From assembly GCF_000384295.1 (NCBI RefSeq), contig NZ_KB913037.1, forward strand, positions 9,313,508 to 9,377,507: a stretch of DNA of 64,000 bases, read 5' to 3'. Numbering within the stretch: position 1 is the first letter of the stretch; every line of letters begins with the position of its first letter. The position numbers were made by a program, and so were the translations under genes. Positions 3,562 to 36,765 of this stretch are shown here, in pieces. The stretch is from Amycolatopsis balhimycina FH 1894 (GTDB lineage Bacteria > Actinomycetota > Actinomycetes > Mycobacteriales > Pseudonocardiaceae). The notes under the pieces were generated by a model, which saw nothing but the letters and a program-made list of their open reading frames with translations, was not told the origin of the DNA and searched no databases.

Positions 3562-4395
3562 ATGACCGAAGCCGAGGTACCGCCGAAGACCGGGAAGCGA
3601 GCGAGGACCTCGATCAGCCGTGAGCTGATCGAGCTCGCGGCGCTGTTCATCGCCACCGGGGTCGCCGATCTGTTCGTCAGCACGTTGTCCCACAACCGGG
3701 TCGGGCCGGTCATGCTGTTCGCGCTGGGTGGGCTCCTGGTCGCCACCGCCGCGGGGCGCCGGTGGTGGACCCACCGTGCGCGACCGAACCGGGCGCGCGG
3801 CACCGCGGCCGAACACCCGCCGCGGACCGGGGTGGCGTGGCGGGTGCGCGCCACGGTGCGTGACGTGCCCGGGAGCTTGGCCGGGGTGACGGCCGCGTTG
3901 GCGGCGCACCGCTACGACATCGTCTCGTTGCAGGTGCTCGCGGTGCCGGACGGCGTGGTGGACGAGTTCCTCGTCCGCGCGCCGGACGGCGCGACCGCGG
4001 CGGACATCGCCACGGTCACCGAACTGGGCGGTGGCCGGGACGTGCGGGTCGTCCCGGCGGACGTGCACGAGTTCGTCGACCTGCCGACCCGCGTGCTGAC
4101 CATGGCGGCCGCGGAGGAAACGGACCTGGTCCAGTTGCTGCGGGCGGTACTGGGCGAGTGCGGCATCGAACGCAAACCCGCCGGACGCCGGGGGAAAGGG
4201 GCCGGTGAAGGCATCGACGGAACGATGCTGCGGCTGGTGGACGTCGACGGCGGCGTCGTGGTGGTGACCCGGCCGCCGCTGCCGTTCACGCCGGTGGAAT
4301 TCGCGAGGGCCAAGGCTGTCCTCGACCTCCAGCGCCGCCTGGCCGGGCCGCGGGCCACCACGGCAGCGGTGATCCAGCCCCGCCTCGAGCGGTGA
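3562..4395 (+). CDS. membrane-anchored ACT-domain protein
   Basis: This 277-aa protein has a basic N-terminus and two transmembrane segments (about residues 22-65, containing LFIATGVADLF and VGPVMLFALGGLLVATAAG). A cytoplasmic ACT-like fold follows from about residue 92: VRATVRDVPGSLAGVTAALA, then the strand YDIVSLQVLAVPDG. ACT domains bind small ligands, often amino acids, and usually sit on enzymes or regulators. Here no catalytic domain is visible, so a membrane-associated sensor is an inference. It stands alone, with divergent and relic genes on either side. The ATG at 3562 is weakly supported by a ribosome site. Confidence 0.75.
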   Translation: MTEAEVPPKTGKRARTSISRELIELAALFIATGVADLFVSTLSHNRVGPVMLFALGGLLVATAAGRRWWTHRARPNRARGTAAEHPPRTGVAWRVRATVRDVPGSLAGVTAALAAHRYDIVSLQVLAVPDGVVDEFLVRAPDGATAADIATVTELGGGRDVRVVPADVHEFVDLPTRVLTMAAAEETDLVQLLRAVLGECGIERKPAGRRGKGAGEGIDGTMLRLVDVDGGVVVVTRPPLPFTPVEFARAKAVLDLQRRLAGPRATTAAVIQPRLER

Positions 4396-5934: not shown

Positions 5935-6296
5935 CCGGCCTTCTCGGGACAGTAGACGTCGATGACGAGCTGCCGTACGCGGACCAGCGTCTCCGGCGGG
6001 AGGGCGGGGAGCGCCGCGGGGCCGCTCGCCCGGGCGAGCGCCGCTTCCGGGTCGGCGCAGATCGAGCCGCCGTCCGTGCCGAGCAACCGGACGAGCTGGT
6101 CGCGCGACGGCACCCGCGCCCCCTCCTGGGTGAGCCGGACCGCGAGGCGGTCGGCTTTCGCTTCCGCTTCGGCGGACGCCCGCGCGGACCGGGAGACGAA
6201 GTAGCCGGCCGCGAGCAGCGCGCCCAACACGATACCCACGGCCAAGTAGACGAGCATCCGCTGCGTCCGGGTCGACCGTTCGTCCACAGTGGTCAT
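5931..6296 (-). CDS. small single-pass membrane protein of the permease operon
   Basis: This 121-aa protein starts at the ATG at 6296, preceded by GGAGGTGAGC and overlapping the permease stop codon (ATGA). Residues about 15-34 (MLVYLAVGIVLGALLAAGYF) form one transmembrane helix. An alanine/charged helical segment and a tail with two cysteines follow, the second at about residue 116 (VYCPEKAG). No family is recognised. Translational coupling on both sides suggests a small accessory subunit or regulator of the transporter/peptidase pair. Confidence 0.8.
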   Translation of the reverse strand: MTTVDERSTRTQRMLVYLAVGIVLGALLAAGYFVSRSARASAEAEAKADRLAVRLTQEGARVPSRDQLVRLLGTDGGSICADPEAALARASGPAALPALPPETLVRVRQLVIDVYCPEKAG

Positions 6297-20125: not shown

Positions 20126-22348
20126 ATGACCACCAGTCGCCCCGCCGGACCGCTGCTGGCGGTCAAGCACACGGTCCCGCCGGTGCGGCGGGGGACTGTC
20201 GAGCGCGCCGAACTGGAGCAGGTGCTCCGTGACGCCGACAGCCGCCTGATCCTCGTCGCGGCACCTGCCGGCTGGGGCAAGACCAGCCTGCTCGGCCGGT
20301 GGGCCGCGGACCCGGGGCCGGAGGTCACCGTGGCGTGGGTGTCGCTGGACGAGGGCGACGACGATCCGGTGCGGTTCTGGCGCTATGTGCTGACCGCGCT
20401 CCACGAGGCGGGCGCGGTCGGATCGGCCGCGCTCGAAGCCGTGGTCGCGCCGGGTGCGGAGCCGATCGATCTCGCCCTGCCGATCCTGCTCAACGAGCTG
20501 GCCGCGTCCTCTCGGCGGCACGTGCTGGTGCTCGACGACTACCACGTGCTCGCCGACGCACGCATCCACGAGAGCCTCGAGTACCTCATCGGATACCTGC
20601 CGCCCACGGTGCGGATCGTCGTCGCCGGGCGGGCCGACCCGCCGCTCCCGCTGGCCCGGCTGCGGGCCCGCGGTGAGCTGACCGAGCTGCGCGCCGACGA
20701 CCTGCGTTTCACCCCCACCGAGGCGGCCGGCCTCGTCGGCGCGGTTTCCGGCCGGACGCCGGCGGCCGGTGACGTGCTGGCGGCGTGGCGGCGGACCGAG
20801 GGCTGGGCCGCCGGCCTGCAGCTCGTCGGGCTGGCGCTGCGCAACGGCGCCGACGGCGCGGCGGGGGACCGGCACGTGCTGGACTACCTCGCGTCCGAAG
20901 TACTGCCCTCTCTCGACCCGGCCGGCCGGGACCTGCTCGTCGCGACCGCGCGACTCGAACGACTCTCCGGCGCCTTGTGCGACGCGGCACTGGGCACCAC
21001 CGGCTCGGCCGGGATCCTGGACGCGCTCGACCGCGCCGACCTCTTCGTCACGTCGATGGACGCCGCCGGCGAGTGGTACCGCTGCCACCCGCTGCTGCGT
21101 GACGCCCTGCTGCGCGAATCACCGGACGGGCGTGACGTTCTCGCCCGGGCGGCCGCCTGGTACGCCGGGCAGGGCCGCCTGGACGACGCCGTGCACCACC
21201 ACCTGCTCGCGGGCGACCCCACCGCCGCCGCCGAGGTGCTGCGGGACGGGTCCGGCTGGTTCCTCGATCGGGGGCTCGCCACCACTTTCCTGTCCCTCGG
21301 CGAACGGCTGCCCGAGGACGCTGTGTCGCCGCAGCTCGCGTTGGCGCTCGCCTACGCCGCCCGGCCCGGCTCCGGGGACGGGCGCGTCGCGCACTGGCTG
21401 GACCTGGCCGAGCGCGGGACCGGTCCGGAGCACTCCGTCTTCGGCTGGCACGACGCCCGCGCCGCACTGCTGACCATGCGCGCGGTCAGCGTTCCGGAGT
21501 CGGAACCGGAGGTCGCCATCGAGCTGGCCGAGCGGGCGGTGGCGCTCGAGGACGCCGCCGATGCCGGGCCTTCTCCCGCGGCGCGAGCCGCCTTGGGCAG
21601 TGCATACGCTCGCAGCGGCCGGTTCGCCACCGCGGCACCGATGCTGCTGGATTCCTGGCGGCAGCGGGAAACCGCCGGCTGGACCGTGGGTCTCTCCGTG
21701 CAGATCGGCGGCTTGCTCGGCCTCACGCTCCTCGCGCTCGACCGCGGCGACGACGTCGACCGGCTGCTGCGCCAGGCCGTGCCGCTCGCCGACCGCGTCG
21801 AGCAGGACTGGGGCGCCGCCGCCATCCCGGTCGTCGCCGCGCTGCGCGTCGTCCAGGGGCGGCACGCGTACCTGCGCGGCGACGTCCGGGTGGCTCGCGA
21901 CCTCCTCGAGCGGGCGATCGCGAACGCCGAGGCCGACGCCCGGCACCTGACCGTCATCGGCGCCCTGGTCTTCCTGGCCGACGCCGAGCTGGGCTGCGGC
22001 CACGCCCCCGCCGCCCGCACGGCCCTCGCCCGCGCGAGAGAGTTCGCCGACGACAACGCACCGGTGACGCCGACCGCGGCGGAGTGGCTGGAGCGGGCCG
22101 AACAACGGATCGGACGGGCGTCGGTCCGGACGGCCACCCGCGCGGGCCGGCTCGCCGAGCCGCTCACCGACCGCGAGCTGTCGATCCTGCGGGTCATGCC
22201 CGGATCGGTGTCGCAGCGCGAGATCGCGGCCGCGCTCTACCTCTCGATCAACACGGTCAAGGCCTACACGAAGAGCCTGTACCGCAAGCTCGGCGTCGGC
22301 TCCCGCGCCGACGCGGTGGCCGCCGCTCGCGACCTCGGCCTCATCTGA
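20126..22348 (+). CDS. MalT-like LuxR family regulator with P-loop ATPase
   Basis: This 740-aa protein opens with a MalT-type STAND ATPase: Walker A AAPAGWGKTSLL near residue 50 and LVLDDYHVL (Walker B) near residue 135. A long TPR-like helical region follows, ending in a LuxR HTH (LTDRELSILRVMPGSVSQRE, then INTVKAYTKSLYRKLGV) at the C-terminus. The ATG has ACAGGAG upstream. It is followed on the same strand by an inverted repeat and an operon encoding a small protein, an Acg-like nitroreductase, a membrane protein and an FAD monooxygenase, which it probably regulates. Confidence 0.92.
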   Translation: MTTSRPAGPLLAVKHTVPPVRRGTVERAELEQVLRDADSRLILVAAPAGWGKTSLLGRWAADPGPEVTVAWVSLDEGDDDPVRFWRYVLTALHEAGAVGSAALEAVVAPGAEPIDLALPILLNELAASSRRHVLVLDDYHVLADARIHESLEYLIGYLPPTVRIVVAGRADPPLPLARLRARGELTELRADDLRFTPTEAAGLVGAVSGRTPAAGDVLAAWRRTEGWAAGLQLVGLALRNGADGAAGDRHVLDYLASEVLPSLDPAGRDLLVATARLERLSGALCDAALGTTGSAGILDALDRADLFVTSMDAAGEWYRCHPLLRDALLRESPDGRDVLARAAAWYAGQGRLDDAVHHHLLAGDPTAAAEVLRDGSGWFLDRGLATTFLSLGERLPEDAVSPQLALALAYAARPGSGDGRVAHWLDLAERGTGPEHSVFGWHDARAALLTMRAVSVPESEPEVAIELAERAVALEDAADAGPSPAARAALGSAYARSGRFATAAPMLLDSWRQRETAGWTVGLSVQIGGLLGLTLLALDRGDDVDRLLRQAVPLADRVEQDWGAAAIPVVAALRVVQGRHAYLRGDVRVARDLLERAIANAEADARHLTVIGALVFLADAELGCGHAPAARTALARAREFADDNAPVTPTAAEWLERAEQRIGRASVRTATRAGRLAEPLTDRELSILRVMPGSVSQREIAAALYLSINTVKAYTKSLYRKLGVGSRADAVAAARDLGLI

Positions 22349-22350
22349 AC

Positions 22351-22380
22351 CCACCCCGGGTAGAACTCCCACCGGGGTGG
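22351..22380. promoter_or_regulatory. inverted repeat downstream of the MalT-like regulator
   Basis: CCACCCCGG (22351-22359) and CCGGGGTGG (22372-22380) form a perfect 9-base inverted repeat with a 12-base centre containing GTAGAACTCCC. It could terminate the regulator mRNA. Its resemblance to the CCTGGGGT cluster near 14400, and its position 36 bases before the next start codon, make an operator for a LuxR-type activator at least as likely. Confidence 0.45.
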
Positions 22381-22415
22381 TGCGCCGGCACCCGGGCCGG
22401 CGGCACGCTCGCCCC

Positions 22416-22631
22416 ATGAACACCGACGCCTCCCGCTACCGGGTCACCGTGGCCGGTCCCGTGGCCGAGGGCGTTCTCGCGACACTCCGCGCGCGTTTCG
22501 ACCTCGAGTCCGTCCGGCCCGGCGACGACGGCACCGAGCTCGTGGTGGCCGGGGTGGACCAGGCGGCCCAGCGAGCCCTGCTGACCCTGCTCTGGGACAC
22601 CGGCCACGTCGTTCGCTCCGTCACCCCGTGA
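22416..22631 (+). CDS. small hypothetical protein with a ferredoxin-like pattern
   Basis: This 71-aa protein (MNTDASRYRVTVAGPVAEGV, later FDLESVRPGDDGTELVVAGV and DQAAQRALLTLLWDTGHVV) alternates strands and amphipathic helices in a beta-alpha-beta arrangement like small ACT/ferredoxin-fold proteins. It lies immediately after the LuxR-associated inverted repeat and before the nitroreductase gene. No function is recognised. Confidence 0.7.
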   Translation: MNTDASRYRVTVAGPVAEGVLATLRARFDLESVRPGDDGTELVVAGVDQAAQRALLTLLWDTGHVVRSVTP

Positions 22632-22651
22632 TTCCGGACTGGAGGCTCACC

Positions 22652-23860
22652 ATGCAGACCGTCTCGAACGACCCGGTCGCGGCACCGCGGCCGGCCGGCG
22701 GATTCAGCCGCCGGCGCCTGCTGAAACTGCTCGGCGCCGGCGGTGCCACCGTGGTCGTCGCGGGCACCGGCGCCTTGAGCTACCGGGTCTACGACACCGC
22801 CGCGCTCGGCCCGGGGCGTGGCGACGCCTACGACCCGTGGCAGCACTGGCGGGAGACGCCGGGCTTGCTCGGTGCGGTGGGGGCGGCGGTACTGGCACCG
22901 AGCCCGCACAACACCCAGCCGTGGGGCTTCGGGATCCGCGCCGACGGCGTGGACGTGTATGTCGACGCGGCCCGCGACACCGGCACGGTCGATCCCTTTC
23001 ACCGCGAGCAGCACGTCGGCATCGGCTGCGCGCTCGAGAACCTCGTGCTGGCGTGCCGGGCGCGGGGACTGCTCCCGACGGTGACGCTGCTGCCCGACGG
23101 CCCGGCCGGTCCGCGGATCGCCGAGGTCGCCGTCCGGCCCGGGCCGCCGGCGCCCAGCCCTCTGTACGACGCGATCGGCGACCGGCACACCAACCGCGGA
23201 CCCTTCGAGGCCACCGCGATCGAGCCCGAAACGCTGAACGAACTGGCCGACCGGACCGGGGCGGACGACGTCGAAGTGCGCTGGATCGCCGATCCGGCAC
23301 CCCGGGCGGCGATGAGCCGGCTCCTGATCGACGCCGCGGCGGCCCTGTGCGACGACGACCAGCAGTCGCGGGACAACTTCGCGTGGTTCCGCGGCACCAA
23401 CGACGACATCCAGCGCTACCGGGACGGACTGACCTTGGGCGGCCAGGGGTTCGGCCCGCTGATGCTCGCGATCGCCAAGCTGCTGCCGGCGTCGTCACGC
23501 GCCGACGGCGATCAGTTCTGGCTCAAGCAGACGACGACGGTGCACACGGCGACCGCCGCGGCTTACGGCGTGCTCACGTCCCGCACGCCCGACGACCGGG
23601 CCACCCAGCTCACCGCCGGGCGGCTGCTCGAGCGCATCCACCTCGCCGCGACCGGCCGGGGCATCGCCCTGCACCACATGAACCAGGTCACCGAGCGGAT
23701 CGATCGTGAACGCAGTACCGGGGCCGCGCCGGCGTTCGGGCCGCGGTTCGCCGAGCTGCTGCCGCGCGGGGAGCAGCCGCTGCTGACCTTCCGCGTCGGC
23801 TATCCCGTGCGCGCGGCGGCCCCCAGCCCGCGCCGCGCGGCCGCGCAGGTCGTCCGATGA
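22652..23860 (+). CDS. exported Acg-type nitroreductase family protein
   Basis: This 402-aa protein starts at an ATG with GGAGG 6 bases upstream. FSRRRLLKLLGAGGATVVVA near residue 18 is a twin-arginine signal with a hydrophobic stretch, so it may be exported folded with its flavin. APSPHNTQPWGFGI (about residue 85) and DRHTNRGPFE (about 180) are typical of the Acg/nitroreductase-like proteins of actinobacteria, some of which bind or sequester FMN rather than reduce nitro groups. It is coupled by ATGA overlap to the next membrane protein. Confidence 0.87.
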   Translation: MQTVSNDPVAAPRPAGGFSRRRLLKLLGAGGATVVVAGTGALSYRVYDTAALGPGRGDAYDPWQHWRETPGLLGAVGAAVLAPSPHNTQPWGFGIRADGVDVYVDAARDTGTVDPFHREQHVGIGCALENLVLACRARGLLPTVTLLPDGPAGPRIAEVAVRPGPPAPSPLYDAIGDRHTNRGPFEATAIEPETLNELADRTGADDVEVRWIADPAPRAAMSRLLIDAAAALCDDDQQSRDNFAWFRGTNDDIQRYRDGLTLGGQGFGPLMLAIAKLLPASSRADGDQFWLKQTTTVHTATAAAYGVLTSRTPDDRATQLTAGRLLERIHLAATGRGIALHHMNQVTERIDRERSTGAAPAFGPRFAELLPRGEQPLLTFRVGYPVRAAAPSPRRAAAQVVR

Positions 23861-24516
23861 GCGCGCGTCGGCTTGCCGGCGGTCTCGGCCTGGCCGGCGG
23901 GCTGATCGGCGTCGCCGCCGGGCTGACGCAGGCGATCGCGGGCGACCGGATCCCGCAGTGGAGCGGGGACAAGCAGACCCCCGCCGCGCTGGGGCTGCTC
24001 ACCGTCGCGCTGTCGTTGGTCGCCGTGCTCGCAGCGGTTCGGCAGCACCGGACCGGGCTCACCGCCGGGCAGCGAGCCGCGTGCGCTCTGGGGCTGGCCG
24101 GCCCGGGCCTGCTGTGCCTCACCACGGTGGGCAGGCTCTGGTACCTGCCGGCCGTGCTGCTGATCGTGGCAGGGGCTTTGACGATCGAATCCTGGCGCGA
24201 CACGGCCGCCGCGGTGGCCACCGGCCGGTGGCGCGTCCTGCTCGGCGCTCTCGGTTGCTGCCAGCTGCTGATGTCGGCCACCGCGGCGCCCGCGCCGATG
24301 GTGCTCGGCGCCCTCGGCGGCATCGCTCTTCTCGCCGCCGCCTGGGTGGACCCCCGACCCCGGTGGGGGCTCTGGGCACTCGTCGTCGCCGGGACCGTCC
24401 CCTTCGCCGTCCTGGGCTGGACGGCGATCGTGCCCCTGCTCGTCACCGTCGAGGCGTTCGCCCTCGCCGCGGTGCGCAAACCCGTTGCAGGAAAACAAGA
24501 CAGGAGTACGTCATGA
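23857..24516 (+). CDS. polytopic membrane protein
   Basis: This 219-aa protein has six or seven hydrophobic segments and small-residue-rich helices (LAGGLGLAGGLIGVAAGL, LGLLTVALSLVAVLAAV, LLGALGCCQLLMSATAA). No family is recognised. The ATG overlaps the stop of the nitroreductase gene, and the end overlaps the FAD monooxygenase start, so it is the middle of a tightly coupled operon. It might anchor or supply substrate to the neighbouring flavoproteins; this is an inference. Confidence 0.8.
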   Translation: MSARRLAGGLGLAGGLIGVAAGLTQAIAGDRIPQWSGDKQTPAALGLLTVALSLVAVLAAVRQHRTGLTAGQRAACALGLAGPGLLCLTTVGRLWYLPAVLLIVAGALTIESWRDTAAAVATGRWRVLLGALGCCQLLMSATAAPAPMVLGALGGIALLAAAWVDPRPRWGLWALVVAGTVPFAVLGWTAIVPLLVTVEAFALAAVRKPVAGKQDRSTS

Positions 24517-26695: not shown

Positions 26696-27267
26696 TCGCT
26701 CCAGCCGTTCTCGAGCAGGTCGAAGATGGCATGCACGGACTCGCGCGGGTGCGGGTCGAGCCCGGCGAGACCGGGAACCTCGAGGACGAACCGGGCGAGG
26801 GCGTGCAGGGCGGGGTCGGTGGTCTCACGGCCGGTGGCCGCGGCGATCGCCGCGGCCAGGACGCCTTCCGCGGAGGTCCACAGTTTGCGCTGGTACGCGC
26901 GCAACGCCGGGGTGCGCAGGATCAGGTCGAGCATCTCACGCCGCTCGGCCGACATGTCCGTCGCGAACGGTCCGCGGCTCAGCATGAACCCGCGCAGCGC
27001 CGCCAGCACCGACTGGCCGGCGGGCCGGTCGCGGACGGTCGCGGCGAGTGCCTCGCGTCGTTCGACACCATCGTCGAAGATCACTGCTTCCTTGCCGTCG
27101 GGAACGTGCTTGAACAGTGTGGCCAGCGAGACGTCGGCCTCCTCCGCGATCTGGGCCACCGTCACGCCGTCGTAGCCACGCTCGAGGAACAAGCGCAACG
27201 CCGCCGCGGCCAGCGCCTGGCGCGTCTGGACCTTCCGGCGCTCCCGGCGCCCCATCGTCGTGGCCAT
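26623..27267 (-). CDS. TetR family regulator, divergent from an FAD monooxygenase
   Basis: This 214-aa protein begins MATTMGRRERRKVQTRQALA and has a TetR HTH (ALRLFLERGYDGVTVAQIAE and DVSLATLFKHVPDGKEAVIF) in residues 10-65. It is transcribed away from the TetX-like monooxygenase gene, with only 84 bases between the start codons, and is the likely repressor of that gene. Its 3' end overlaps the neighbouring TetR gene on the other strand. The two proteins are similar in domain layout, which suggests an old duplication. Confidence 0.92.
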   Translation of the reverse strand: MATTMGRRERRKVQTRQALAAAALRLFLERGYDGVTVAQIAEEADVSLATLFKHVPDGKEAVIFDDGVERREALAATVRDRPAGQSVLAALRGFMLSRGPFATDMSAERREMLDLILRTPALRAYQRKLWTSAEGVLAAAIAAATGRETTDPALHALARFVLEVPGLAGLDPHPRESVHAIFDLLENGWSDQRNGSAEGTAANPLDLLPDEPPA

Positions 27268-27292
27268 GGGCTCACGGTACCTCAGAAAGCAG

Positions 27293-27330
27293 AAGACATC
27301 TGAATCCAGAGTCGCTATACTTTCAGAGTC
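27293..27330 (+). promoter_or_regulatory. sigma-70-like promoter with direct repeats
   Basis: AAGACA (27293-27298) and TATACT (27316-27321) are separated by exactly 17 bases, a good vegetative-type promoter for the monooxygenase gene. CAGAGTC is directly repeated at 27307-27313 and 27324-27330. CTGAA/TTCAG half-sites lie around the -10 box, as expected for a repressor operator bound by the divergent TetR protein. Confidence 0.55.
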
Positions 27331-27351
27331 ACTTCGAGTTCAGGAGGAATC

Positions 27352-28491
27352 GTGAGCACACCGACGATCGGCATCGTGGGCGCCGGGCTGGGCGGGCTGA
27401 TGCTCGCGCGAGTCCTGCAGGTCCGCGGTATCTCCGCCACGATCTACGAGTTGGAGGAGTCTCCTGACACGCGCACCCAGGGCGGCATGCTCGACATCCA
27501 TGACTTCAACGGGCAGGTCGCGCTTCGTGATGCCGACCTGTTCGAGGAATTCCTGGCCGCCGTTCACACCGGCGGCGAGTGCACGCGCATCTTGGACAAG
27601 CACAACAACCTCCTGCGAGAGGACCCGGACGACGGTGACGGCCGCCGTCCCGAGGTCGATCGCGGCCGGCTGCGGCGGATCCTGCTCGACTCGCTGCCCG
27701 CGAGCACCATCCGGTGGGGCAGCAAGGTCACCGGAGCCCGCCCGCTCGGCGGCGGCCGGCACGAACTGACCTTCGCCGACGGCCGGCACACCACAACCGA
27801 GGTGCTGATCGGCGCGGACGGCGCGTGGTCCCGGATACGCCCCCTGCTGTCGGACGCCCAGCCCGCGTACGCCGGGATGTCGTTCGTCGAAGCCGAACTG
27901 TGCGACGCCGACACACGGCACCCTGTTTCCGCCGCTGTCGTCGGCGCGGGCATGCTGTTCGCGCCGGCGCCGGGCAAGGGCTTCCTAGCGCACCGCGAAC
28001 CGGACGGCAGCCTGCACGTCTACGTCGCGCTCGAGGTCTCGCCGGACTGGATCGGCAGTGTCGACTTCACCGACCCGGTCAAGGCCAAGGCCGTCGTGGC
28101 AGAGCACTTCGCCGACTGGGCGCCCGAACTGCGGGCCCTGATCACCGACGCGGACGGCGCGCTGATCCCGCGGACCATCAACGCACTGCCGGTCGGACAC
28201 CGATGGGAGCGGGTACCGGGAGTGACGCTGCTGGGCGACGCCGCGCACCTGATGTCGCCGTTCGCCGGTGAGGGCGCCAACCTGGCCATGTTCGACGGCG
28301 CCGAGCTCGGCAAGGCGATCGCCGCACACCCCGACGACGTCGAGGCCGCCCTGGCCGCATACGAGAATGACCTGTTCCCACGCAGCGCGGAAGCTGCGCA
28401 GGAAGCCGCGGACAATCTCGTGCTGTGTTTCGACGACAACGCGCCACAGAGCCTTCTGGCCCAATTTGCCGCCTACGACGGAGCCCACTGA
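27352..28491 (+). CDS. TetX-like FAD-dependent monooxygenase
   Basis: This 379-aa protein has a GTG start behind AGGAGG. GIVGAGLGGLMLARVLQVRG (FAD ADP site), GGMLDIHDFNGQVALRDADL (region of the tetracycline-destructase group), VLIGADGAWSRIRPLL (DG motif) and TLLGDAAHLMSPFAGEGANL (GD motif) are present. The GG-L-D-H-G-like motif places it near TetX/FAD monooxygenases that hydroxylate antibiotics. Substrate specificity cannot be inferred. It is driven by a clear promoter facing a TetR gene, which suggests drug- or metabolite-inducible expression. Confidence 0.92.
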   Translation: MSTPTIGIVGAGLGGLMLARVLQVRGISATIYELEESPDTRTQGGMLDIHDFNGQVALRDADLFEEFLAAVHTGGECTRILDKHNNLLREDPDDGDGRRPEVDRGRLRRILLDSLPASTIRWGSKVTGARPLGGGRHELTFADGRHTTTEVLIGADGAWSRIRPLLSDAQPAYAGMSFVEAELCDADTRHPVSAAVVGAGMLFAPAPGKGFLAHREPDGSLHVYVALEVSPDWIGSVDFTDPVKAKAVVAEHFADWAPELRALITDADGALIPRTINALPVGHRWERVPGVTLLGDAAHLMSPFAGEGANLAMFDGAELGKAIAAHPDDVEAALAAYENDLFPRSAEAAQEAADNLVLCFDDNAPQSLLAQFAAYDGAH

Positions 28492-28578
28492 TACCGAGCA
28501 AGATCCAGGCGGCGAGCGACCGTCGGCGCAGCTGCTGCCGCTCAGGAAGCGCTTTACCGGCGAGGCATGCGAGAATTA

Positions 28579-28594
28579 CCCTGTAGCTGCAGGG
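28579..28594 (+). promoter_or_regulatory. palindrome upstream of the peptide precursor gene
   Basis: CCCTGTAGCTGCAGGG is a nearly perfect 16-base palindrome 70 bases before the precursor start. It is the only strong symmetrical element in the 172-base spacer. It may be an operator or a leader hairpin. No convincing -35/-10 pair was found around it. Confidence 0.3.
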
Positions 28595-28663
28595 CGGCCG
28601 GCGGATGACTTCATCGGTGCGTCACCCACTGTTCGGAATTCGTATCGAAACGAGGGGGAAAAG

Positions 28664-28888
28664 ATGAAATCCACGCCCACTGCCGCGCTCACGGTGACGA
28701 ACCTCGCGGAATCCGGCGATCGTTCCGATGCCGGCCGCGGCGTTCGGGTATTCGCCGCTCCGGCGTCCGCGCTCACCGTGACGCCACTGGCCGAGCGTGA
28801 CGAACACAGTGGCACCGGCCGCGGCGTGACCATGTACAACGAAGCCGGAAAGGCCGACCCCGGTTCGGCCGCCGCGGAACCGCGCTGA
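28664..28888 (+). CDS. putative RiPP precursor peptide with two core repeats
   Basis: This 74-aa peptide starts at an ATG preceded by GAGGGGGAAAAG. It contains two imperfect 23-residue repeats: residues 8-30 begin ALTVTNLAE and end GRGVRVF, and residues 36-58 begin ALTVTPLAE and end GRGVTMY. Thirteen positions are identical, and both units end in an aromatic residue. The peptide has no cysteine, no hydrophobic signal sequence, and an Ala/Gly/Pro-rich tail. It lies directly upstream of a B12-radical SAM peptide maturase. Repeated cores, small size and context make it a ribosomally made, post-translationally modified peptide precursor. No known precursor family is recognised. Functional assignment is inferred. 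Confidence 0.75.
   Translation: MKSTPTAALTVTNLAESGDRSDAGRGVRVFAAPASALTVTPLAERDEHSGTGRGVTMYNEAGKADPGSAAAEPR
28685..28753 (+). repeat. precursor repeat unit 1
   Basis: Codons 8-30 of the precursor. The unit shares ALTVT-x-LAE, a central Ser, GRGV and a terminal aromatic with unit 2 at 28769-28837; the 15-base linker between them encodes AAPAS. Confidence 0.7.
28769..28837 (+). repeat. precursor repeat unit 2
   Basis: Codons 36-58 of the precursor. The unit ends GRGVTMY where unit 1 ends GRGVRVF. Nucleotide divergence at synonymous and non-synonymous sites shows that it is an old duplication held at selected residues rather than a recent copy. Confidence 0.7.
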
Positions 28889-28908
28889 CCGGCGAAGCAG
28901 GCGGTTCG

Positions 28909-30795
28909 ATGCCCCGCGGGCGCGTTCCCCGCACCTGCCTGGTTTCGATGCCGTGGCACTCGCTGCACCGCCCCTCCCTCGCGCTCGGCGTACTGCGCGC
29001 TGCGTGCGCACGGGAGGGGCTTCCGGTCCCGGTTTCCTACCACGGCAGTCTCGCCTTCGCCGACATGATGCTGCGGGCGGGTCTGACCGTGGGCGACTAC
29101 GCGGAAATGGCGGACACCGGGTTCCACCATTCGCTCGGCGAATGGATCTTCGCGGGTGCGCTCAACGGACCCGATTTCGGTTATGCGGGCATGCGGGACC
29201 TGGCCCGCCGTGCCGGCCTGCCCTTCCGCATCGCCGCGGCGGTTCGTGAGCTCGCGGATGAATTCACCGATCAGGCCGCCGAGGCGATTCTCGCCCACGA
29301 GCCGGAACTGGTCGGCTTCAGCGCGACCTTCAGCCAGACCATCGCCAGCCTCGCGGTGGCCAGGCGCATCAAGGACCGGCGACCGGGCGTGCAGATCCTC
29401 CTCGGCGGCTACTCGACCGACGGCCCGATGGGCGTGGCGCTGCACCGGGAGTACCCGTTCGTCGACTACGTCCTGCGCGGCGACGCCGACGTGACTTTTC
29501 CGAAACTGCTGCTGGCCCTCGCCGAATGCCACGCGACCGGAACCCGTGACGGCCTCGACGACGTGCCCCAGCTGTGCCGGCGTGACGACGACGGCGCCAC
29601 CCGGGTCAGTCCGTGCCCGTCCCGGTTGGTCTCGCCGACGTCGATCACGACACCGGACTACGACGACTGGTTCGCCGCCGTTCCCGCTTCCGTCGCGGCC
29701 CGCGTCGAACCCGAGTTGGTCGTGGAGTCCTCCCGCGGCTGCTGGTGGGGCGCGAAACACCACTGCGTCTTCTGCGGACTCAACGGCACCGCGATGACCT
29801 ACCGGGCCAAGCCCGCCGAGTCCTTTGTGGACGAGGTGCTCGGGCTGGTGCGCCGGCACCGGATCCTCGACGTCACCACGATCGACAACATCCTGCCGAA
29901 CGAGTACTACCGGTCGGCGCTGCCGGAGCTGGCCGGCGCCGGCCACGACCTGCGCATCCACTACGAAATCAAGGCCAACGCGCAGATCGGGGACGTGGCC
30001 GCGCTGCGGGCGGCCGGGGTGTGGGACGTCCAGCCCGGCATCGAGAGCCTGGTCGACGACGTGCTGCACCGGATGCGCAAGGGCGTCCGCGGGGCACACA
30101 ACGTGCGGATGCTGCGCGACGGTGCTTCGGCCGGGCTCACCATCGCCTGGAACTGGTTGTACGGGTTTCCGGGCGAACGCGTGGCGGACTACGCCGCGGT
30201 CGTGGCCCAGCTGCCCGCCCTGGTGCACCTGCAACCGCCCAGTGGTGCGGCACGTATCGCCCTGCAACGGTTTTCGCCGAACTTCGACGACCCGCGGCAG
30301 GGCTTCACCGAGCGTCGCCCGGCGGCGGGGTCGCGCCTCGTCCACGACATCGACGACCCGGAGCGGCTCGCCGAGCTCGTCTACTCCTTCGACACCCCGG
30401 ACCAAGGACTCACGGCCGAAGAGGTCACGCCGCTGGTCGACGCGCTGGCCTCGTGGACCGCGGGCTATGCGGGGAGTGCGCTGATCGCCCGCACGATCGA
30501 CGACCTCGTGGTGATCCGGGACCGGCGCCACGGCTGGGCGCCGGTCGACCACGTACTCGAGCACCCGCGTGAAATCGCGGCCTGGCGAGCACTGGAAACC
30601 GGCCGCGCCCCGCTCCGGGTACTCGCCGAACAGAACCACGAATGGGACCCGGACGACTTCGGCCACTGGCTTCGCCGGCTCGAGGAGGCCGGCCTGGTCT
30701 TCACCGACGGCAATTTGTGGATCACCCTGGCCACCTCGCCCACCGTGGCGCGGAAGACCCCCTTGCCGTTGCCGGTTCTCACGCCGTCCGCCTGA
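28909..30795 (+). CDS. B12-binding radical SAM peptide maturase (rSAM-ocin type)
   Basis: This 628-aa enzyme has an N-terminal cobalamin-binding-like region (CLVSMPWHSLHRPSLALGVL, ELVGFSATFSQTIASL, QILLGGYSTDGPMGVAL). A radical SAM domain with C278, C286 and C289 in CWWGAKHHCVFCGLNG follows. That spacing (C-x7-C-x2-C) and sequence are the hallmark of the RiPP maturation radical SAM protein 1 group (TIGR03975). It should bind a 4Fe-4S cluster, SAM and probably cobalamin, and modify the upstream precursor, perhaps by C-methylation or another radical reaction. The chemistry is inferred. The N-terminal MPWHSLHRP motif sits where family members start. Confidence 0.92.
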   Translation: MPRGRVPRTCLVSMPWHSLHRPSLALGVLRAACAREGLPVPVSYHGSLAFADMMLRAGLTVGDYAEMADTGFHHSLGEWIFAGALNGPDFGYAGMRDLARRAGLPFRIAAAVRELADEFTDQAAEAILAHEPELVGFSATFSQTIASLAVARRIKDRRPGVQILLGGYSTDGPMGVALHREYPFVDYVLRGDADVTFPKLLLALAECHATGTRDGLDDVPQLCRRDDDGATRVSPCPSRLVSPTSITTPDYDDWFAAVPASVAARVEPELVVESSRGCWWGAKHHCVFCGLNGTAMTYRAKPAESFVDEVLGLVRRHRILDVTTIDNILPNEYYRSALPELAGAGHDLRIHYEIKANAQIGDVAALRAAGVWDVQPGIESLVDDVLHRMRKGVRGAHNVRMLRDGASAGLTIAWNWLYGFPGERVADYAAVVAQLPALVHLQPPSGAARIALQRFSPNFDDPRQGFTERRPAAGSRLVHDIDDPERLAELVYSFDTPDQGLTAEEVTPLVDALASWTAGYAGSALIARTIDDLVVIRDRRHGWAPVDHVLEHPREIAAWRALETGRAPLRVLAEQNHEWDPDDFGHWLRRLEEAGLVFTDGNLWITLATSPTVARKTPLPLPVLTPSA

Positions 30796-30806
30796 GAAGG
30801 AGCCAC

Positions 30807-31439
30807 ATGCGTACCCTGGCCGCTCCGCACCCGGCGTGGCCCGAAACGGTCGAACTCGACTTCGGCCGGATCGACGCCGATCCCGGCACCGCACTGCGTG
30901 TCGTGGCCGGACTGGCCGGGCGTGCGCAGCGGTTGCGGCTGCCGGAGCCGTTCGCCTTCGGCGAATTCGCGCACCGCGACGCGACGATGGTGCGCTTGCT
31001 CGCGGCCGCCGCGGCGGCGTTCGTTCCGGTGGACTGGACCTTACGGGAGCCATTGCCGGGCCCCATTCCCGAACGCGCCCTGTGCCATCTGCCGCCACCA
31101 CGGGACGACGGGGAACCCGGTCGCCGCTGGCGTGAAGCCCACGACGTGGGCCTCTGCACCTACCGGTACGGTCCGGGGTTCGTCCTCATCCACGACACCC
31201 GCCCGGGCGGGCCGATCAACCGCGTCCACGTCGAAGCCGGCTGGGTCGACACGTTCCGGACCCTGGCCGGCACGGACCGGCCGCCGGCCGACGGGCCCGC
31301 GGCGGATCTCCTCGACCAGCTGGCGGCTCACCAGCTCGCCCTGCGGTTGGACGACCGGTACGCCGTCATGTTGCCGTACCACGCGGATCGGCGTCCGCCA
31401 CCCGGCCGGGTGGTCCCGTCGGTGAAGCCGAGCCTATGA
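30807..31439 (+). CDS. DUF5825-like partner of the radical SAM maturase
   Basis: This 210-aa protein starts at an ATG with GAAGGAG upstream, 11 bases after the maturase stop. It resembles the DUF5825 proteins that accompany RiPP maturation radical SAM methyltransferases in actinomycetes (ELDFGRIDADPGTALRVVAG, GLCTYRYGPGFVLIHDTRPG, HQLALRLDDRYAVMLPYHAD). No catalytic motif is evident. A role in precursor binding or delivery is possible. Codon 79 is TTA (31041-31043), rare in this genome, suggesting bldA-type developmental control. The stop overlaps the MFS start (ATGA). Confidence 0.75.
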   Translation: MRTLAAPHPAWPETVELDFGRIDADPGTALRVVAGLAGRAQRLRLPEPFAFGEFAHRDATMVRLLAAAAAAFVPVDWTLREPLPGPIPERALCHLPPPRDDGEPGRRWREAHDVGLCTYRYGPGFVLIHDTRPGGPINRVHVEAGWVDTFRTLAGTDRPPADGPAADLLDQLAAHQLALRLDDRYAVMLPYHADRRPPPGRVVPSVKPSL

Positions 31440-32686
31440 CCGGCGCCTCGCCGGAAGCCTCGACGTCGGCCGGGCTGCGCGGGCATCGCGCGTTCCGGTT
31501 CCTGTGGACCGCGGACGCCGCCTCGCAGCTGGGTACCGCCGCCGCGACCGCGCTGGTGCCCCTGCTCGCCGCGACCACCCTCGGCGCCACTCCGCTGCAG
31601 ATGGGACTGCTCACGGCGGCGGAGACCGTGGCGTTACTGGTCATCGGCCTGCCCGCCGGTGCCTGGATCGACCGGACCCGCCGCCGCCGCGCGGTACTCG
31701 TCGGCGCCGACCTCGTCCGGGCTCTGCTGTTCTTCGGGCTTCCGGTCGCGGGCTGGACCGGTGTGCTGGACTTCGGGCAGCTGCTCGTCACGGCGGTTCT
31801 CGTCGGCGTCGCGACCGTGTTCTTCGACGCCGCCTACCAGGCGTACCTGCCGGTGGTGATCGGGCTGGAGAACCTGGAAACCGGCTACGCGCGCCTGCAG
31901 ATCACCCTGTCGGTCGCCGCGGCCGCCGGGCCCGGCATCGGTGGCGTGCTCACTCGCGTGATCGGTGCCGCCTCCGGGCTGCTGCTCACCGGGGCGGGCT
32001 ACCTGGCTTCGGCCGCGCTCCTGTCGCGCGTCCGGGCCGTCGTGCCGCCGATACCACCGCGGCCGCGGGAGGTGCGGCTACGCACCGAGATCGCCGAGGG
32101 TCTCCGCTACATCGCCGGCCACCGCCAGCTCCGCCTCCTGGCCGTCGCGAGTTCCGTCGCCGCCTTCTTCACCGCGGGCTTCATGTCCATGGAAGTCCTG
32201 TTCTTCACGCACGACCTGCACCTGGACGCGGCGGGCGCGGGCGTGCTGCTGGCCCTGTCGGGCGTGGGCAGCGTCATCGGCGCCGCGACGACCGGCCGCT
32301 GGACCCGCCGCCTCGGGGCGGCTCGCGCCAACTGGCTGGTGCCGGTGCTGACGTGGCCACCCCACCTGCTGCTCCCGCTCGCCCAGCCGGGCCCGATCGG
32401 ATTGGTCCTGGCGGCAACGGGAATCGTCATCCACGCCGCCGGCGGTACGACCTACAACGTGATCGTGATGACCCGCCGCCAGCACCTGACACCGGACGCA
32501 CTGCGCGGCCGCGTCCACACGAGCATGCGCGTGCTCATCTGGGGAACCATGCCACTCGGCGCGCTGGCCGCGGGAGTCTTCGCCGAGTCAGTGGGTACGC
32601 GCGCGACCCTGACCATCGCCGTCGCCGGAATCCTCATCGCGATCGTGCCCGCGGCCCGGTCCGCCCGCGACCACGTTGCCCCTTGA
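31436..32686 (+). CDS. MFS exporter of the peptide locus
   Basis: This 416-aa protein has twelve predicted membrane helices. The loop sequence GAWIDRTRRRRAVLVGADLV after helix 2 fits major facilitator antiporters of the MFS_3/enterobactin-exporter type. It is translationally coupled to the DUF5825-like gene, and no ABC or peptidase-containing transporter is present, so it is the best candidate for product export. Codon 67 is TTA (31634-31636). A leader peptidase is not encoded nearby; cleavage may be done by a housekeeping protease. Confidence 0.9.
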   Translation: MTGASPEASTSAGLRGHRAFRFLWTADAASQLGTAAATALVPLLAATTLGATPLQMGLLTAAETVALLVIGLPAGAWIDRTRRRRAVLVGADLVRALLFFGLPVAGWTGVLDFGQLLVTAVLVGVATVFFDAAYQAYLPVVIGLENLETGYARLQITLSVAAAAGPGIGGVLTRVIGAASGLLLTGAGYLASAALLSRVRAVVPPIPPRPREVRLRTEIAEGLRYIAGHRQLRLLAVASSVAAFFTAGFMSMEVLFFTHDLHLDAAGAGVLLALSGVGSVIGAATTGRWTRRLGAARANWLVPVLTWPPHLLLPLAQPGPIGLVLAATGIVIHAAGGTTYNVIVMTRRQHLTPDALRGRVHTSMRVLIWGTMPLGALAAGVFAESVGTRATLTIAVAGILIAIVPAARSARDHVAP

Positions 32687-32797
32687 TCAAAGGGGAGCGG
32701 TAGCCGTGACCTGGGCACTAAAGCGCCACTAAAGACTTCCTACGGCTCAACCGGCCACCTTTCTCGCGGGCCGCTGTCGCTGGGCAGCGCCGACGAG

Positions 32798-32818
32798 CCA
32801 ACCGGGTGATGCGGTTGG
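32798..32818 (+). repeat. small hairpin before the lectin gene
   Basis: CCAACC (32798-32803) and GGTTGG (32813-32818) can form a 6-base stem with a 9-base loop just upstream of the GGGGAGAG ribosome site of the lectin gene. It could modulate translation; the stem is short. Confidence 0.25.
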
Positions 32819-32837
32819 CATCCAGAAAGGGGAGAGC

Positions 32838-33386
32838 ATGAAACGCGGTCTGATTCGTGCCGTCACCGCTGTCACCATGGCCGTTGCCGCGGCTGTCGGT
32901 TTCGTGGTTCCGGCGACAGCGGCGACTTCCGGGAGAGTCTCGCCGGCCGGTGCCGTCGCCAACGGCACCTACCGGTGGGCCAACGCCAACAGCGGGCTGT
33001 GCCTGGCCTACGCCGTGGACAAGCGGGGCGCGAACCGCCAGGAGGGCTGCGACGGCAGTGACTACACCATCTACTGGGACGCCGTGAACGTCGGCGGCGA
33101 CAACTACCGGCTCATCAACGAGCACAACGGCCAGTGCCTGTCCATCTGGCGCGGCGACACCGGCGACAACGCCCAGGTCGGCATCTACGCCTGCGTCGAC
33201 ACCCCCGCGGAGATCTTCACCCTCGTACCGGCGACCTCGCCGGCGTTCGCGGGTGCCTACCAGTTCGTGAACGTCAACAGCGGCAAGTGCGTGGCGGTCG
33301 GCGGCGCCCGGACGAACTACGGTGCCTGGGTCATCCAGTGGACCTGCGCGCAGAGCGGCGAGTTCATGTGGCGCCCGTACAGCTAG
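32838..33386 (+). CDS. secreted ricin-type beta-trefoil lectin
   Basis: This 182-aa protein has a Sec signal peptide (MKRGLIRAVTAVTMAVAAAV, cleavage near ATAAT at about residue 29). The mature part is one RICIN/beta-trefoil domain with repeats of the N-x-x-SG-x-C-L type: NSGLCLAYAVDK, HNGQCLSIWRGD and NSGKCVAVGGAR. Six cysteines fit three disulfides. No catalytic domain is attached. The expected role is extracellular carbohydrate binding. It is a single gene between the peptide locus and the convergent SARP regulator. Confidence 0.88.
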   Translation: MKRGLIRAVTAVTMAVAAAVGFVVPATAATSGRVSPAGAVANGTYRWANANSGLCLAYAVDKRGANRQEGCDGSDYTIYWDAVNVGGDNYRLINEHNGQCLSIWRGDTGDNAQVGIYACVDTPAEIFTLVPATSPAFAGAYQFVNVNSGKCVAVGGARTNYGAWVIQWTCAQSGEFMWRPYS

Positions 33387-33485
33387 CGTTCCGCACCGGG
33401 GATCCGGTCGACGCGTGAGGCGAGGATCTCGCGAGCGTACGTGGTCCACCACGGACGGCGCGGGATCCTCGTTCCGGACCGGGGT

Positions 33486-36302
33486 TTACCGGGAACCCTC
33501 ACCGGCGTGCTCGTCGAGGCTTTCCAGCCGCCGCTGGACCTGGGCGGCGTCGGAGTCGCGTCCGTGCGCCTCGTACAGCTCCGCCGCTTCCCGCCAGACC
33601 ACCCGGGCCAGTTCGTGCCGGCCGAGGGCGACGTACGGGTGGCCGAGCCGGTCGAGGGTCGCGGCGGACTCGTACGTGTTGCCCAGCCGGCGGAAGAGCG
33701 TGAGCGCCTGCCGGTAGTGGTCGATGGCCCGGTCGTGGTGGCCGGTGTGGTGGTCGATGTAGCCGAGACTGTCCAGCGTGTCCGCCTCGCCGCTGGGGTT
33801 GTCGTGCCGGCGGTGCAGGGTCAGCGCGGCCTGGCAGTGCGCGCGGGCGGTGTCGTAGTCACCGAGCCGGGAGGCGTGCCAGCCCACCCCGTTGAGCGCG
33901 TTGGCTTCCCAGGCCGGCCGGTCGAGGGCGCGGCACAGTTCCAGCGCACGGGTGGCGTGCTCCAGGGCCCGGCTGTTGTCCTCCCGCCGCTCCCAGGCCC
34001 GGGCGAGCTGGTGGTGGGCGAGAGCCTGCTCGGCGGTGTCGCGGTCGCGCTCCGCCAAGGCGAGGGACTGGTGCAGGTGCCGGCTCGCGTCTTCGTGACG
34101 GTCCAGTTCGCCCTGGGCGCGTCCGAGGTAGCGGTGCGCGCGGGCGGCGGCGAGGTCGGGCAGGTGCGCGGCGACGTCCACCGCGGCCCGCCACGCGGAA
34201 AGATCGTCCTGACGGTGTCCGCGCCGGGCGTGGAAGGTGGTCAGGACCCAGGCCAGCTGCCAGACCCGGGCGTCCCAGCCGTGGTCGAGGGCGGCTCGCT
34301 GGGCGGCCACCAGGTTGGCGTGCTCGGTCTCGAACCAGGACATCGCCGCCGCCATGTCCGGCAGTTCGTGAGGGTTCGCGTCGGGGGCACGTGCCTCGAG
34401 CAGGACAGCCGGGCGACGGGAATCCACCAGCCGGTCGGCCGCGTGGGCGGTGTGGAGGTAGAAATCGAGCACGCGCCGCAGCGCCGTTTCCCGTTCGGCC
34501 GGGTCGTGCCGCTGGGTGGCGTATTCGGTGGCGTACAGGCGGACCAGGTCGTGCATCCGGTACCGGCCCGGTGTGTGCTGCTGGAGCAGGCACGCGTTCT
34601 CCAGCTCGTTGAGCAGCGCCCGGGTCGCGCCGGACGGCCGGCCCAGCAAGCCGGCGGCGGCGGGCAGGCCGATGTCGGGGCCCGGTGCCAGGCTCAGCAG
34701 GCCGAACGCGACCCCGGCCGCGTCGGACAACGCGTGGTGGGACCAGGACAGGACGGTGCGCAGGGTGACCCGCGGATCGCCCGGGTCCAGGGCGTCCAGG
34801 CGACCGGACCGGTCGCGCAGCTCGTCCGCGAGGACGGCCAAGGGAAAGCCGGGGTGGCGGGTGGCGCGGGCGGCCACGATGCCCAGCGCCAACGGCAGGC
34901 CCGCACAGCAGGCCACCAGCTCGTCGACCGCCTCGGGTTCGGCGGCGACCCGGTCGTGGCCGAGGTGGCGGGTGAGCAGGTCACGGGCCTCGCGCTCGGA
35001 GACGACGTCGAGGTCGACGCAGTGCGCGCCGTGGGCGGTGACGAGCCCGCCGAGGTGGCGACGGCTGGTGACCAGCACCGTGCAGGTGGGACTGCCCGGC
35101 AACAGCGGGCTGACCTGGTCCGTGTCGCGGGCGTTGTCCAGCACGATCACCATGCGCTTGCCGGCCACCAGGCTGCGGTACAGCCGCACTTGGGCGTCCG
35201 GGTCGACCGGGATCGTGGCCGGGTCAACGCCGAGGCTGTCCAGGAAGCCGCGCACCGCCGTGACCAGGGGAACCGGTTGCCCGGCGGGGTCGAAGCCGCG
35301 CAGGTCGACGTGCAGCTGCCCGTCCGGGAACCGGTGGAGGCGGGTGTGGGCCCAGTGCAGCGCCAGCCAGGTCTTGCCGATCCCGCCGGTGCCGCCGATC
35401 GCGGAGATCATCACCGTGCCGCCCGTGTCCGGCTGTTCGGTCAGGATGGCGTCCAGCCGGGCCAGTTCGGCGGCGCGGCCGGTGAACAGCCGGGGTGGGG
35501 CAGGCAGCTGCCGCGGCACCGGCGTGGCCGGCGGCTCGGTGCGCGCCGCCGGCCCGGCCAGGTCGGGAGCGGCGTGGAGGATGCGCTGGTACAGCTGCCG
35601 CAGTGGTGGGCTCGGGGACACGCCGAGTTCGTCGGCGAGATCGCGGCGGAGCTGCTCGTACCGTGCCAGCGCGTCGGCTTGGCGGCCGCCGCGGTAGAGC
35701 GCGAGCAGGTACTGGCCGGCCAGGCGTTCGTCCAGCGGATGACGCTCCACGCGGTCGGCCAGCTCGGCGAGCAAGCCGGCGTGCTGCCCCAGGCGCAGCC
35801 GGATGTCGGTGAGATCGAGCTCGACCGCGTGGCGCTGCTGCAGGAGCGTGGTGCGCACCGAACCGACCCAGTCCGTGTCCGTCACACCCGCGAGAGGATC
35901 TCCCCGCCACAGCCCGAGCGCCCGGGTGAACGAGTCGACGGCGCGGTCGTCCTGCCGGCCGGCGCGGGCCTGCTCGCAGAGAGCCCGGAACCGGTGCAGG
36001 TCGACGAGTTGCGGATCGACGACGAGCCGGTAACCGGCCGGGTGTGTCGTGACGGCGACGCCGGGCACGGCGGCGAGTGCCTTGCGCACCAGGGCAATGC
36101 GCTGGTGGACCGCGCCGCGCGGGTGCCGGGGCAGGCGATGCGGGCGCCAGGCCCGATCGAGCAGCTGATCGACCGACACGACGTGGTTGGCCTCGACCAG
36201 CAGCACCCCCAGCAGACCGCGCAGCTGGGCGAAGCCGATGGTGACCGGAGTGCCGTCGACGGCGGCCTCGACTTCGCCGAGCAAGCGGAATTCCACCGTC
36301 AC
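33486..36302 (-). CDS. AfsR/SARP-family pathway regulator with NB-ARC and TPR domains
   Basis: This 938-aa protein starts with MTVEFRLLGEVEAAVDGTPV, the usual SARP opening. A winged-helix DNA-binding domain and a bacterial transcriptional activation domain follow to about residue 250. An NB-ARC ATPase comes next (ISAIGGTGGIGKTWLALHWA near residue 300, VIVLDNARDTDQV near 385), and then TPR repeats (about residues 630-930) such as LEHATRALELCRALDRPAWE. The start at 36302 is chosen by homology although the frame stays open to 36734. Such regulators activate antibiotic clusters; the P450 gene and the peptide locus are candidates. Confidence 0.9.
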   Translation of the reverse strand: MTVEFRLLGEVEAAVDGTPVTIGFAQLRGLLGVLLVEANHVVSVDQLLDRAWRPHRLPRHPRGAVHQRIALVRKALAAVPGVAVTTHPAGYRLVVDPQLVDLHRFRALCEQARAGRQDDRAVDSFTRALGLWRGDPLAGVTDTDWVGSVRTTLLQQRHAVELDLTDIRLRLGQHAGLLAELADRVERHPLDERLAGQYLLALYRGGRQADALARYEQLRRDLADELGVSPSPPLRQLYQRILHAAPDLAGPAARTEPPATPVPRQLPAPPRLFTGRAAELARLDAILTEQPDTGGTVMISAIGGTGGIGKTWLALHWAHTRLHRFPDGQLHVDLRGFDPAGQPVPLVTAVRGFLDSLGVDPATIPVDPDAQVRLYRSLVAGKRMVIVLDNARDTDQVSPLLPGSPTCTVLVTSRRHLGGLVTAHGAHCVDLDVVSEREARDLLTRHLGHDRVAAEPEAVDELVACCAGLPLALGIVAARATRHPGFPLAVLADELRDRSGRLDALDPGDPRVTLRTVLSWSHHALSDAAGVAFGLLSLAPGPDIGLPAAAGLLGRPSGATRALLNELENACLLQQHTPGRYRMHDLVRLYATEYATQRHDPAERETALRRVLDFYLHTAHAADRLVDSRRPAVLLEARAPDANPHELPDMAAAMSWFETEHANLVAAQRAALDHGWDARVWQLAWVLTTFHARRGHRQDDLSAWRAAVDVAAHLPDLAAARAHRYLGRAQGELDRHEDASRHLHQSLALAERDRDTAEQALAHHQLARAWERREDNSRALEHATRALELCRALDRPAWEANALNGVGWHASRLGDYDTARAHCQAALTLHRRHDNPSGEADTLDSLGYIDHHTGHHDRAIDHYRQALTLFRRLGNTYESAATLDRLGHPYVALGRHELARVVWREAAELYEAHGRDSDAAQVQRRLESLDEHAGEGSR

Positions 36303-36402
36303 ACGAGCCCCCCACCGAAGCCACCACCCGACTCGATTCGCCGCAGATATACCTATCCGTCCGAGCCGGTCGGCACAACCAACGACCGGGCGAACGTCGT
36401 GC

Positions 36403-36430
36403 CCGGGTGTCCCCGGTCCGGGTATCCCGG
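36403..36430. repeat. tandem near-palindromic repeats upstream of the SARP gene
   Basis: CCGGGTGTCCCCGG (36403-36416) and CCGGGTATCCCGG (36418-36430) lie about 100 bases upstream of the SARP start codon. They have the size and placement of a regulator-binding site but not the exact 11-base period usual for SARP heptamers. Confidence 0.35.
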
Positions 36431-36594
36431 CTGACCATGTGCGGAGCCTCGGATTGCGCTGATCCCCGGCGCGGTTCCCGGGGTCAGGCCGGGCGCAGCC
36501 GGTCGCGCAGACCGGCGGCGAGCCCGGTGACCGTCGCAGGTCGACGAGTCCGCCGCCGTACTCGACCAACCGGGGGCGGCGAGCCCCGCCGAGC

Positions 36595-36765
36595 GTGCCG
36601 ACCGTCCTCATTGGACGCCCGCTGACCGGCCTCATCCTCAACCGGGTCGCCGGCGGCCCCGCGGACTGGCGGTCGGTGCCCCGGCTGCGGCGGATCCACG
36701 CGGTCTCCACGCTCACCTGCGCGGCGGTCACCATCGCCTGCGTCCGCCGCGCCCGGCGTCCCTGA
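36595..36765 (+). pseudogene. fragment of a membrane protein gene (DUF3159-like tail)
   Basis: About 57 codons read VLIGRPLTGLILNRVAGGPA, then DWRSVPRLRRIHAVSTLTCA, with strong third-position GC and a stop at 36763-36765. The pattern resembles the late part of DUF3159-type integral membrane proteins, but there is no upstream coding sequence and the tail is replaced by a basic stretch. A decayed remnant in the 630-base SARP-P450 spacer is likely; the rest of that spacer shows no clear gene. Confidence 0.4.

Follow-up and report, generated by a model that had tools for sequence, protein, structure and literature searches.

A putative four-gene B12-radical SAM RiPP cassette of Amycolatopsis with its own precursor family and a DUF5825 partner homologous to the C-terminal half of its maturase

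Clavusporins are reportedly ribosomally synthesized and post-translationally modified peptides (RiPPs) made by a B12-radical S-adenosylmethionine (SAM) enzyme and a DUF5825 protein, a result that Zhang, Li, Overton and Seyedsayamdost are said to have published in Nat Chem Biol in 2025. PMC12257519 describes C-methylation of clavusporins by a B12-radical SAM/DUF5825 pair homologous to the one treated here, and according to PMC12951456 the clavusporin leader is taken off by the prolyl oligopeptidase MpcP. A related arrangement occurs in a 64,000-nucleotide stretch of Amycolatopsis balhimycina FH 1894 (the window, meaning the whole stretch analysed), where four co-directional genes at 28664–32686 encode a 74-aa putative precursor, a 628-aa maturase, a 210-aa DUF5825 protein and a 416-aa transporter of the major facilitator superfamily (MFS). 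The host, a soil bacterium, has a genome of 10.86 Mb. The MFS start overlaps the DUF5825 stop in an ATGA at 31436–31439 and ribosome-site-like sequences are present, in keeping with the single operon proposed in a preliminary description of the locus. We consider it probable that these genes form a self-contained RiPP cassette, itself probably moving laterally, in which the 74-aa substrate is handled by a maturase complex with two domains resembling the RiPP recognition element (RRE), C-methylated in its second repeat, exported by the MFS protein and cleaved by a protease from outside.

The four genes recur as one block. Regions of 17–19 kb around five other Amycolatopsis carriers were compared with window positions 16000–46000 by dc-megablast; in all five the homology runs from 28518–28550 to 32670–32686 at 90–94% DNA identity, with the MFS gene inside it. 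The flanks differ among carriers, the sole match outside the block being one of 67% at 34.5–35.8 kb in L124. The peptide is encoded in six of 80 genomes of the genus, the window's own included, and maturases at least 92% identical to the window's are found in the same six; in a survey of 150 genomes of the taxonomic family the precursor was matched in only two, so that of the 46 genera covered one, that of the window, has it. About 80 bases 5' of the peptide start, all six genomes keep a promoter-like TTTACY, a spacing of 17–18 nt and TACCCT. We read this pair at the left edge of the block as a candidate promoter; a sigma-70 consensus scan did not flag it.

Cassette identity is lower than rpoB identity in all 15 genome pairs (the two come closest at 94.26 for the cassette and 94.33 for rpoB), and the genome nearest to G000 is G061 by rpoB and G065 by the cassette. 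Because cassette and rpoB rank the genomes differently, lateral movement of the cassette is likely, though not proven. Plasmids gave no match to 28500–32700 in megablast mode, and no clean empty site was found: for the flanking flavin adenine dinucleotide (FAD) gene the other five carriers offer distant matches only, the best of them at 66%.

The two imperfect repeats that had been noticed in the peptide are real: the best half-to-half comparison scores 69, and none of 1000 shuffled versions of the peptide exceeded 39. The peptide belongs to a family of 42 proteins, its own sequence included, which became 44 (with P0057 and P0058) after a profile search whose scoring was confined to the 7,993 candidates with most words in common. 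Neither NCBIfam nor Pfam nor PHROGs holds a match. These observations uphold the earlier view that the precursor belongs to no recognized family. Its frame is conserved in close relatives, and the peptide would appear to define a new precursor family of its own. Within it the two repeats differ sharply. Pooled over all pairs of the six related sequences, which are not independent of one another, dN/dS is 1.05 for residues 8–31, 0.21 for residues 36–62 and 0.40 for the tail; mean entropy over the 42 proteins is 1.21 bits in the first repeat, 0.27 in the second and 1.02 in the tail. The second repeat is under strong purifying selection at the amino-acid level and the first is not. Residues L37, T40, A43, E44, R45 and D46, and further on R53, G54, V55, T56, M57, Y58, N59 and A61, are invariant in all 42 proteins, and E60 is conserved in 38. 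In the first repeat the LAExDDR (LAExxDR) segment is fairly well kept, with E16 in 37 and R20 in 38 of the 42; GRGV is poorly kept, G26 being present in 17 of 42 and the stretch missing from one of the six genomes. Because constraint differs between the repeats, we infer one core, around GRGVTMYNEAG of the second repeat, and one product; the proposal that the enzyme modifies each repeat finds no support in dN/dS values of 1.05 and 0.21 or in the loss of the GRGV part from one genome.

The preliminary description had also named unrelated sequence beside homologous maturases as an observation that would count against it. The precursor is kept in six of six loci whose maturases are at least 92% identical, while the three loci at 46–58% identity carry other small open reading frames (ORFs) instead. 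RiPP precursors usually change faster than their enzymes, and we therefore do not take these other ORFs as refutation. At L119, where the maturase is 58% identical, the small ORF ahead of it scores 2.1 bits only and does not qualify as a relative.

The assignment of the maturase to TIGR03975 and to the cobalamin-binding enzymes is borne out. It scores 493.4 bits against TIGR03975 (cut-off 281.85), which NCBIfam names 'RiPP maturation radical SAM C-methyltransferase', and its B12-binding domain scores 33.1 against PF02310 (cut-off 32.1); the Pfam Radical_SAM model gives 27.5, just below its cut-off of 29.5. Across 97 maturases C278 and C286 of the CX7CX2C motif are invariant and C289 is found in at least 90%. 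Its fold matches include the B12-radical SAM methyltransferases TokK, CysS and TsrM, and the top structural match is OxsB. Three more TIGR03975-like maturases (L082, L083 and L084) occur in the window's own genome, at 34–39% identity and with no DUF5825 match, and may mark further RiPP loci of this strain.

The gene after the maturase had been called DUF5825-like, and its product scores 63.6 bits against PF19142 (gathering cut-off 25); the next protein, predicted as an MFS transporter, matches MFS_1 (PF07690) and MFS_3 (PF05977). DUF5825 is found in eight of 80 genomes of the genus, in nine copies, each directly adjoining a maturase at least 47% identical to that of the window. In Streptomyces 91 of 392 genomes match, 90 of them above the cut-off, and in an even sample of the phylum four of 396 genomes are above it. 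DUF5825 directly follows a TIGR03975 maturase in all 28 loci examined. One Streptomyces locus (L190) has a pair of DUF5825 genes, of which one does not directly follow a TIGR03975 maturase; the coordinates of the two-DUF5825 entries are 5554–6132 for L190 (numbered on the minus strand) and 3477–4046 for L014.

Among 97 maturases placed in a tree, those paired with DUF5825 (37) are separated from those unpaired (60) by a single change, on a branch with support 100 (SH-aLRT); 500 shuffles needed about 30 changes on average. The tree was built by a quick method, with several long branches flagged, and an unpaired maturase is one with no DUF5825 match in the fetched locus (flanks of 1.5–6 kb); L059 was counted as unpaired although its 125-aa ORF scores 18.9 bits. 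Maturase loci were the best 80 of 130. The tree set (A3) holds the window and 96 of 114 maturases, the rest having been dropped by hand as redundant, long or doubtful. Set A2, with 79 rows, leaves out L081, which is the window, and L113, L179, L184, L185 and L188, whose starts are doubtful (5 of 71 distinct locus proteins); P0043–P0055 were added to it and P0056 was not. The unpaired TIGR03975 (rSAM_ocin_1) maturases share the family and the fold of the paired ones, C-terminal domain included, but have no DUF5825 match beside them and lie across the support-100 branch.

Profile-profile comparison of DUF5825 with the C-terminal half of the maturase gave a probability of 98.1 and a score of 104.7, where shuffles reached at most 23.3, and DUF5825 retains a stub of the radical SAM barrel. 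DUF5825 is, on these profiles, homologous to the C-terminal half of the maturase, as a detached counterpart. The modelled C-terminal domain of the maturase consists of three strands, three helices and two strands; its profile matched 29 PqqD-family domains (from 29 of 30 loci, L214 being excluded) with a probability of 93.4 and a score of 52.4, while 100 shuffles gave no score above 19.6. A Foldseek search with the DUF5825 model returned no PDB match at E≤0.001. Three strands and a winged helix, as in the RRE (PqqD-like; TbiB1 of a lasso peptide), make up the maturase C-terminus and probably the end of DUF5825, so that both proteins would end in a fold resembling the RRE. The arrangement is unlike that RRE in that the maturase carries one such domain as a fusion, the candidate second one belonging to a partner with a radical SAM barrel stub. 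The maturase complex would thus have two RRE-like domains with a putative role in peptide binding. In the open-licence literature searched, no title dealt with how DUF5825 folds or where it came from, although such work may be published elsewhere.

The likeness to the clavusporin system lies in a TIGR03975-type maturase followed by DUF5825, with an MFS gene nearby. Clavusporin-like Streptomyces loci have an HNDPL-type precursor with a hydrophobic C-terminus, whereas the window encodes a precursor of another family with a polar core, and its MFS gene follows DUF5825, unlike in those loci. Upstream of the maturase in 20 Streptomyces DUF5825 loci the peptide is HNDP-type in six and IKKV-type in seven, with none convincing under the filter in seven. 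L171 and L173, the two HNDP-type loci scanned for peptidases, both carry an MFS gene as well as one for a prolyl oligopeptidase. Because of that peptidase we equate the HNDP(L) type with the clavusporin type, a tentative assignment set by gene neighbours rather than by clavusporin sequence. The conserved block of the window has no counterpart of MpcP, and indeed no peptidase among its four genes. By analogy the cassette may work like the clavusporin system, but it departs from the members of that system in two features, the peptidase and the precursor type.

For the seven IKKV-type loci of Streptomyces (L181–L183, L185–L188) we know of no published name. Their maturases fall in the same 17-row group as that of the window (support 99), and an MFS gene follows DUF5825 in five of the seven; their precursors, of about 27–48 aa (EIKKVxVRxE...), have no visible similarity to the ALTVT peptide of the window. 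Within Amycolatopsis, L120 and L121 carry an identical 32-aa ORF (MAIKKVRLEK...) ahead of the maturase; the gene in front of this ORF encodes a conserved protein of 252 aa, by eye like a diiron (ferritin-like) enzyme.

The data presented above have led us to propose a model in which the 74-aa peptide is the substrate and LTVTxLAE of its second repeat the likely recognition strand for the two RRE-like domains, the maturase's own and that of DUF5825. The maturase would then C-methylate the second repeat at one or a few positions, by analogy with the clavusporin pair, the core being held in the invariant stretch around GRGVTMYNEAG. The MFS protein would export the product, and because the cassette has no peptidase, cleavage would fall to an unlinked protease outside it. 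The first repeat may be a copy in decay, or it may assist recognition as an auxiliary strand. The RiPP cassette reading draws on the four-gene block, common to six genomes with nothing beside it; on the occurrence of precursor and maturase in the same six of 80 genomes, with the second repeat under purifying selection; and on DUF5825, for its constant place after the maturase, its homology to it and the RRE-like fold. C-methylation is suggested by the TIGR03975 score, the fold matches to TokK, CysS and TsrM and the precedent of the clavusporin pair. As to how the two domains arose, a tentative and rather doubtful possibility is that the maturase lineage copied and detached its own substrate-binding half as DUF5825, without the cluster and the cobalamin domain, gaining a second RRE-like domain and hence a two-RRE heteromer. 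In Amycolatopsis this heteromer perhaps meets a precursor with two LTVTxLAE-like strands and one core, a bivalent presentation.

The same cassette might carry out B12-radical SAM chemistry of another kind: instead of C-methylating the peptide, the enzyme could, for instance, cross-link it (Tyr58 being one candidate residue), epimerise it or form a ring. Such chemistry is varied, as PMC12257519 illustrates with PbsB, which cross-links ortho-tyrosines, and with OxsB, the top structural match of the maturase, as a ring-contraction enzyme; a tyrosine also lies within the invariant stretch of the precursor. We nevertheless regard this as unlikely, for TIGR03975 is by its NCBIfam name a C-methyltransferase family, and the pairing with DUF5825 is that described for the C-methylated clavusporins.

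Less probable still is that both repeats are cores giving two related products. The two repeats are more similar than chance allows, and the first preserves its LAExDDR fairly well, but the contrast in dN/dS, the retention of G26 in a minority of the family and the loss of the GRGV-equivalent residues from one of six genomes speak for a single core. That the peptide is instead a small regulator or a leader peptide of the operon, with the substrate encoded elsewhere, we hold to be very improbable. No product is known and precursor types vary among relatives, as such a role would allow, but it fits poorly with amino-acid-level selection on the second repeat, with the shared distribution of peptide and maturase, and with the small ORFs found at the same place before 13 of 20 DUF5825-paired Streptomyces maturases. 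Nor did Rfam give any match at E≤1 across window positions 27000–34000, so that no listed cobalamin riboswitch lies in that stretch.

Table 1. Features of the cassette, in window coordinates.
Feature	Position	Strand	Remark
Promoter-like pair TTTACC - 18 nt - TACCCT	28553..28582	+	left edge of conserved block
Putative RiPP precursor, 74 aa, Cys-free, two imperfect repeats	28664..28888	+	
First repeat, residues 8-31, under weak or no constraint	28685..28756	+	dN/dS 1.05, entropy 1.21 bits
Second repeat, residues 36-62, strongly constrained; proposed LTVTxLAE recognition strand and core	28769..28849	+	dN/dS 0.21, entropy 0.27 bits
RGVTMYNEA, residues 53-61, proposed as all or part of the core	28820..28846	+	
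B12/radical SAM maturase, TIGR03975, 628 aa	28909..30795	+	
CWWGAKHHCVFC, cluster-binding CX7CX2C, maturase residues 278-289	29740..29775	+	
Maturase C-terminal RRE-like (PqqD-like) domain, residues 525-606	30481..30726	+	model and profile match
DUF5825 protein, 210 aa, homologue of maturase C-terminal half	30807..31439	+	PF19142, profile-profile
Candidate RRE-like domain of DUF5825, residues 115-188	31149..31370	+	
MFS transporter, proposed exporter, 416 aa	31436..32686	+	PF07690, PF05977

Outside the conserved block, a ricin-type lectin gene (32838–33386) lies directly 3' of the cassette, and a 1082-aa BTAD/NB-ARC/TPR regulator is encoded on the other strand at 33486–36734. Further upstream, 20126–24516 holds in a row a regulator of LuxR/MalT type (740 aa), an ORF of 84 aa, an FMN oxidoreductase of the Acg family (NF047509, 229.8 bits, cut-off 199) and an unmatched protein of 219 aa. 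An 881-aa protein with AMP-binding and aldehyde dehydrogenase domains is encoded on the minus strand at 48369–51014.

The locus would bring a further precursor family to the recently recognized class of B12-radical SAM RiPPs, with a minimal architecture of four genes that is small enough for direct reconstitution. It also gives DUF5825 a testable role and origin, namely the presentation of the substrate by a domain derived from the maturase. If this is true, partner proteins of RiPP enzymes can arise by the detachment of a maturase domain.
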